Shown: piece after piece, positions 1,971 to 2,271 of the stretch
How positions within the stretch are numbered: the first letter of the stretch is position 1
Layout of the letters: each line of letters begins with the position of its first letter
Virus record (IMG/VR): IMGVR_UViG_3300022746_000051
Coordinates: 1-24,069 of that record
Source: a virus
DNA: 24,069 nucleotides
Direction: 5' to 3' (one strand)
The notes under the pieces: model-generated
Seen by the model: the letters and a program-made list of their open reading frames with translations, nothing else
What the model was told of the DNA's origin: nothing
The model's database searches: none
Program-made: the position numbers and the translations under genes

Positions 1971-2271
1971 GATTGCTACAAGCAGTCAAGCGCAGCCAGA
2001 CGCAGCGAGTACTAATAACCGGCAAGCCAAGCTTGCGCCGGATAAACGTAACCGGCACTAACACGCATGAGGATTGGTAAAAGCCGAAAGTGACCTAATG
2101 CTCTGGTCTATGTCTTTCGGTGATAGAGCTTCCAGTCCTCAGTCGTGTTGGTGAATGCGCAGGCTGATGCGCAAACGGATGGAAGGGATAAGCAGGGGAA
2201 ATGGTCCTAAGCCGGTATGCCCGGCTGCTATGAAAAAGCGCCGCCCCACTGTGCCGGAGATCAGCACCGGC
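1971..2271 (+). ncRNA. Large structured RNA candidate with long helix and pseudoknot
   Basis: The 350-nt gap between GroES and the next gene has no plausible reading frame but is full of helices. They are: hairpin 1971-1977/1981-1987; hairpin 2019-2027/2031-2041 (CCGGCAAGC with GCTTG-CG-CCGG); and a two-part long helix, 2056-2065 with 2144-2153 and 2068-2077 with 2132-2141, ten pairs each around a 2x2 internal loop. Within it, 2084-2090 pairs with 2114-2120 and 2092-2095 with 2105-2108, while the enclosed loop GCTCT (2100-2104) pairs with AGAGC (2125-2129), forming an H-type pseudoknot. Hairpins follow at 2156-2161/2168-2173, 2210-2215/2221-2226 and 2253-2257/2267-2271. The non-Watson-Crick steps (2059-2150, 2074-2135, 1973-1985) are G-U on the + strand and would be A-C on the other. 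I recognise no family; size and architecture recall HEARO/omega-RNA, GOLLD or ROOL-class RNAs, but no IscB/TnpB-like gene is adjacent. No 3' T-tract is seen. Confidence 0.6.

Follow-up and report, generated by a model that had tools for sequence, protein, structure and literature searches.

A non-coding gap in the late gene run of a phage very probably encodes a tRNA-like RNA with hypervariable cassettes

The window, which is the whole stretch of DNA analysed here, is a 24-kb virus record (24,069 nt). Its late gene run includes genes of a GroES-like protein, small open reading frames (ORFs), the small and large terminase subunits, a P22-type portal, a scaffold and a head protein. In line with the original prediction, which noted one long non-coding gap, positions 1951-2300 form the longest stretch of the window without a credible gene. 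This gap lies between the gene of the GroES-like protein (1675-1947, PF00166) and a small phage ORF (2301-2447), after which the terminase genes follow. The window also carries a gene for a NUMOD4/HNH homing-type endonuclease (292-804) and a gene for a RecA-dependent nuclease (792-1085, Ref-like, PF16786). The Rfam search gave no gathering-level match in the gap, and up to E 10 only chance-level hits were obtained. Kinship with HEARO, GOLLD or ROOL is not supported, since none of them gave an Rfam match. On the + strand the gap (1951-2300) folds better than every dinucleotide shuffle (z -3.3), and the same is true of the - strand (z -2.9). Since these values are close, folding energy alone barely favours either strand. 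It had been claimed that three G-U pairs can be read only on the + strand. Two of them were seen (2059-2150 and 2074-2135), and the third was not located.

All elements described below are on the + strand. The 5' part of the gap is a putative hairpin (1951-2011), in which the conserved arms GAAAGCGGATGCTG (1951-1964) and CAGACGCAGCGAGTA (1997-2011) flank a variable insert. The arms are unchanged around differing inserts in the syntenic relatives L026 and L033, and related arms were found elsewhere by eye. The single-sequence fold then gives two short hairpins (2022-2027/2031-2036 and 2037-2041/2052-2056; together 2022-2056). Apparently similar GCCGG..CCGGC hairpins precede the next element in other phages. 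This next element, stem A, is formed by a 5' strand at 2058-2077 and a 3' strand at 2132-2151, as judged from complementarity and covariation. It had been proposed as a 10+10 bp helix (2056-2065/2144-2153 and 2068-2077/2132-2141). The helix is present and is favoured by single-sequence folding. Comparison backs most of it, namely about 2058-2065/2144-2151 and 2069-2077/2132-2140, and leaves 2056-2057 unsupported. To be compared, the copies of stem A were anchored with CACGCATG / CAGYCGTG. In 27 copies, 5.81 of the 6 inner pairs are formed versus 4.45 after permutation, so that the letters vary and the pairing stays. Pairing extends outwards by four more pairs, which corresponds to 2058/2151 in the window. 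These four pairs outside CACG are formed in 89, 85, 90 and 83 of 92 distinct copies, and three of them exceed permutation. Stem A encloses a variable insert, cassette A (2078-2131). The complementarity of a candidate pseudoknot is present in its letters (CCGAAAG/CTTTCGG at 2084-2090/2114-2120 and GCTCT/AGAGC at 2100-2104/2125-2129). The insert is hypervariable, and no homologue sharing it was found among the relatives.

Stem A is followed by a tRNA-like module, which spans about 2147-2279. It begins with the 5' strand of a 7-bp acceptor-like stem (GTTGGTG, 2147-2153), of which 2147-2151 are common to stem A. Then come a 5-bp D-like arm (GCGCA-GGCTGA-TGCGC, 2157-2172) and, at the place of the anticodon arm, an 80-nt hypervariable insert, cassette B (2173-2252). 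A 5-bp T-like arm (GCCGG-AGATCAGCA-CCGGC, 2253-2271) joins the 3' strand of the acceptor-like stem (CACCAAC, 2272-2278) without a linker. Among the five flanking hairpins of the original prediction, those at 2157-2172 and 2253-2271 turned out to be the D-like and T-like arms of this one module. The T-like loop does not conform to the canonical T-loop motif (UUCRANN), and CCA is not encoded. Neither ARAGORN nor RF00005 matched the module in the window. We aligned 52 modules, that of the window included. In this alignment, a 7-bp stem is followed by a 5-bp arm, whose loop has 6 nt, by an insert and by a second 5-bp arm that runs straight into the closing stem. The predicted order and sizes of these stems are those of the acceptor, D and T arms of tRNA. 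R1, the covariance model built from these 52 modules, matches the window at 2141-2282 with 85.6 bits (E 2e-20), the window being one of its training sequences.

In a blastn search, more than 200 phage records (E up to 10) and 65 plasmid records proved to share short conserved pieces with the gap. The constant blocks GGTGAATGCGCAGGCTGATGCGC and GCCGGAGATCAGCACCGGCCACC recur with unrelated sequence between them, mostly 31-178 nt long. Pattern scans of viral contigs gave at least 120 stretches each; the match lists were seeded with conserved letters, which biases family size and loop conservation accordingly. The R1 search added at least about 200 convincing modules in phages, prophages and plasmids, with hosts mostly among the Gamma- and Betaproteobacteria. 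At E up to 0.001, a match was present in 8 of 248 Enterobacterales and 11 of 398 Pseudomonadota genomes; the weakest genome matches (below about 30 bits) are probably due to chance, and some low-scoring MAG hits are chance matches too. Among 5,426 E. coli genomes, 108 carry a near copy of the HK620 unit, mostly unannotated among the matches listed.

Across 92 distinct hits aligned to the model, double changes occur in 15 of the 19 pairs of the acceptor, D and T stems, including four of the five pairs in each arm; the D-like arm is 99.3% paired. There are 157 double-change cells versus 29 +/- 4 in shuffled data, and partner-sliding controls are far lower; this set was fitted to R1, which somewhat helps its signal. 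In a hand-structured alignment (A1), pair counts back all three stems; change is mostly in the acceptor, which covaries here as well. The acceptor is exactly 7 bp long: alignment columns 7-13 are almost always paired, and columns 5-6 are often unpaired. The D-like and T-like loops (GCTGA, 2163-2167, and TCAGC, 2261-2265, in the window) are complementary in 214 of the 218 copies with both arms. This pairing is almost without covariation, and the loop letters were fixed in the search patterns. Among the variants, ACTGA/TCAGT is a clear compensatory pair change, the only one seen, and GCGA/TCGC is an alternative pairing. Given the loop letters in the search patterns and the one clear compensatory change, a contact between the two loops is plausible. 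Covariation in hundreds of relatives, and not the originally listed helices alone, supports the claim that the + strand encodes a structured RNA. Despite small ORFs in the gap, the covariation of stem and arms and the varied contexts argue against a coding region. We conclude that the gap very probably encodes a member of a family of structured tRNA-like RNAs. By comparison, it is built of a stem-A hairpin that holds one variable cassette and, 3' of it, a tRNA-like module that holds a second one at the place of the anticodon arm. Such units also occur in tandem arrays (L177:1700-2343, L178, L113, L130 and L140). A neighbouring unit in L177 has the same acceptor (GTTGGTG/CACCAAC) and a stem A and scores as a large-insert tRNA with 35.4 bits; for the L177 unit at 1921-2033, the tRNA score places the insert in the D-loop.

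The 7-bp stem that closes the module (2147-2153/2272-2278) competes with the long outer helix for 2147-2153. In nested folding, the outer helix beats the acceptor by about 5 kcal/mol and the acceptor has a probability of 0; these energies exclude loop-loop and pseudoknot terms. Positions 2147-2151 are complementary both to the upstream strand of stem A and to the downstream strand of the acceptor, and this is conserved in many relatives. A 7-bp downstream partner is present in 78 of 91 stem-A copies, but shuffles already give 60, so that this count says little. The dual complementarity may reflect a conformational switch, a sequence of folding steps or a boundary that shifts.

The two cassettes vary strongly. 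Among the matches listed, 161 module pairs fall into 153 clusters by the upstream segment, which holds cassette A, and into 140 clusters by the B insert; 155 B inserts are distinct. Twelve B cassettes are each paired with at least two upstream segments that differ; conversely, more than one B cassette is found with each of five upstream segments. Phages having an identical 3' flank carry different cassettes. The pairwise similarity of inserts is nearly always zero and now and then near one. Apparently, cassettes are replaced between constant scaffolds rather than drifting gradually. The B inserts are only slightly better folded than shuffles (mean MFE z -0.47), and a scan for a common insert subfamily, GCCGG-N5-CCGGCTGCTATGAAAA, found it in three contigs only.

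The surroundings of the modules differ. In P1 the module lies between tRNA-Thr and tciA, in HK620 between pR'/qut and the tQ terminator, and in PAJU2 between Q and the lysis genes. It is located in the tRNA region of Klebsiella phage Magnus and ahead of tRNA-Trp and tRNA-Arg in Xanthomonas phage Kintu; other relatives adjoin tail or portal genes. A tRNA gene lies within 1 kb of 25 of 168 modules, compared with 6% of random positions, and 24 of these 25 modules are on the strand of the tRNA. Long ORFs are avoided, covering 58 of the 168 modules versus 75% of random positions. In Escherichia phage IME11 (L213:966-3052), a 2-kb stretch without annotated genes contains a unit and several tRNA-like sequences, two of them matching RF00005. 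Because the genomic context varies among relatives, from tRNA clusters and the interval between antiterminator Q and lysis genes to tail and portal genes, the packaging or head-assembly role considered earlier is not supported. A guide or antisense function of the variable insert is conceivable.

At 12 loci of enterobacterial type, a 10-codon tag-like frame lies just upstream of the unit on the same strand (L002:2294+, L004:2264+, L025:980+, L034:5458-, L049:2192-, L075:6251-, L078:2406-, L079:670-, L161:3034-, L211:2257+, L213:1802+ and L264:2444-). The frames read ANDDVVLMAA, ANDEQFLAVA, ANEEMYLAVA, ANDDLMLMAA and ANDDAVLMAA. The helix around the stop codon of the tag and the next helix show compensatory changes. 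The match to tmRNA_permuted is weak (33 bits, E 0.003) and below the Rfam gathering score. Such a frame is absent from the window. These loci possibly encode undescribed phage tmRNA-like RNAs.

How might such an RNA work? It would be transcribed on the + strand together with the late genes, and tRNA-recognising host factors would bind its constant scaffold, stabilise it or process it. With less certainty, the RNA may be a mimic, decoy or adaptor acting on tRNA or the translation machinery, and the exchangeable cassette may set specificity. The latter would explain the rapid replacement of cassettes. Most likely, the phage RNA imitates tRNA and targets tRNA or the translation machinery, or it serves as a scaffold that displays variable cassettes; we give this reading about an even chance. 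That the RNA acts on this machinery rather than by base pairing alone falls somewhat short of an even chance. The tRNA layout, the neighbourhood of tRNA genes and the tmRNA-like tag frames incline us towards the machinery; the described behaviour of Pas sRNAs inclines us towards base pairing. The two modes are compatible with each other. A broader and distinctly tentative idea is that tailed phages of Proteobacteria share modular RNAs mimicking tRNA or tmRNA, with exchangeable hypervariable cassettes and some of them linked to tags, as a diversifying RNA recognition system whose targets would be host tRNA or the ribosome-rescue machinery.

Among the other explanations, a base-pairing sRNA has the most weight, and we regard it as a real though minority possibility. 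The tRNA-like part would then be a stability scaffold, and the cassette an antisense seed against mRNAs of the host, of rival phages or of the phage itself. A base-pairing role with a variable seed has already been proposed for PasD and STnc100, and the Pas sRNAs come from Hfq RIL-seq and were validated by Northern blot, PasD and STnc100 being structurally homologous with different seeds (PMC13192938). STnc100_4 was verified by Northern blot in EHEC (PMC5331693). The weak structure and extreme variability of the B inserts would also suit a seed. RNAs that act by base pairing, as reported for PasD and STnc100, could do without any role directed at tRNA. However, no intrinsic terminator was recognised 3' of the module in the window, STnc100 is a distant relative, and the described sRNAs are single genes, in contrast to the tandem arrays at many loci here. 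The tag frames raise a further explanation, rather unlikely in our view, namely a tmRNA-like or anti-rescue RNA. It would combine the tRNA-like domain with a putative upstream tag partner for trans-translation in enterobacterial phages, and the tagless forms, such as that of the window, would titrate SmpB or other tRNA binders. The tag-like frames at 12 loci, their compensatory helices and the weak tmRNA_permuted match speak for it. Moreover, there is a record of a phage tmRNA consisting of little beyond the tRNA-like domain, and a molecule of this sort inhibits tmRNA (PMC4131195). Yet the match stays below the Rfam gathering score, ARAGORN calls no tmRNA, and the window lacks a tag, a canonical T-loop and G3-U70 in the acceptor.

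A cis-acting element for the processing or regulation of late mRNA, e.g., one controlling the gene starting at 2301 or the late leader, is less probable still. The RNA does lie among late genes of the same orientation, with its end 22 nt ahead of a start codon, the HK620 copy sits between pR'/qut and tQ, and the two partners of 2147-2151 make a switch conceivable. Against this, the downstream genes vary among relatives, even when the two syntenic ones are compared, and the relatives are found in settings as different as tRNA clusters and plasmids. An RNA-only assembly such as a cage of the GOLLD/ROOL type, in which kissing loops would connect separate molecules and the variable insert would serve as cargo or linker, seems highly improbable. 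It would fit the shared ecology (phages and prophages, vicinity of tRNA islands, kissing loops and variable linkers; PMC12286853). But the unit is much shorter, the Rfam search matched neither GOLLD nor ROOL, and the complementary loops are explained inside a single module.

The tRNA mimic or scaffold that we prefer can be compared with several known RNAs. Like phage tRNA genes, the modules have the acceptor length, the arm order, the tRNA adjacency and the strand; unlike them, they have neither an anticodon arm nor a T-loop and are not called by ARAGORN. GOLLD and ROOL likewise occur in phages close to tRNA islands and have kissing loops and variable linkers; they are far larger and multimeric, without sequence or structure match here. 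As in the tRNA-like domain of tmRNA, a long insertion replaces the anticodon arm, and enterobacterial relatives have a tag-like frame; the canonical T-loop, G3-U70, a tag in the window and an Rfam tmRNA match are missing. YrlA (RF02553) likewise sets a tRNA-like domain, made of acceptor, D and T arms, beside a long stem (reviewed in PMC8394870); in the present RNA, the stem comes before the tRNA-like part. YrlA itself was rejected: its matches were at chance level and on real tRNAs, and a Ro60/TROVE gene was present in 0 of 10 related phages.

The closest likeness is to the prophage sRNAs STnc100 (RF02076) and PasD. Both are prophage-borne and share their layout with the modules here: the 7-bp acceptor has GGUGAAU on its 5' strand, the 5-bp D-like arm has a loop of 6 nt, and the insert is followed by a 5-bp T-like arm directly joined to CACC (Rfam consensus of STnc100). 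Unlike STnc100, the window has the T-like loop AGAUCAGCA instead of AGGCA, and it is complementary to the D-like loop. Unlike both sRNAs, the modules here have a stem-A partner and occur in tandem arrays. STnc100 gave no match in the window at gathering level or at E up to 10. The last module of P1 (L209:2683-2813) scores 33.9 bits with STnc100, which is below gathering, and 29.7 bits with R1 (E 3e-5). In Klebsiella phage Magnus, an STnc100 RNA above the Rfam threshold lies in the tRNA region (L211:4052-4266). We consider the phage RNAs probably distant kin of STnc100 and, since the window itself has no STnc100 match, not members of its family. PasD and STnc100 were reported as homologous prophage sRNAs, in a text that names neither a cloverleaf nor tRNA mimicry for them (PMC13192938, preprint). 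A literature search, with few subscription-only sources, gave no description of such a tRNA-like phage RNA. Thus, the word "undescribed" of the original prediction holds for Rfam, but not entirely, as the described STnc100 and PasD share the tRNA-like layout. By sequence comparison, the gap appears to belong to a large family that is not collected in Rfam and is distantly related to STnc100. This family would account for long non-coding gaps that adjoin phage tRNA genes or occupy part of late leaders in familiar phages (P1, HK620). It would also tie an orphan prophage sRNA (STnc100/PasD) to hundreds of unannotated phage RNAs and give both a concrete predicted fold.
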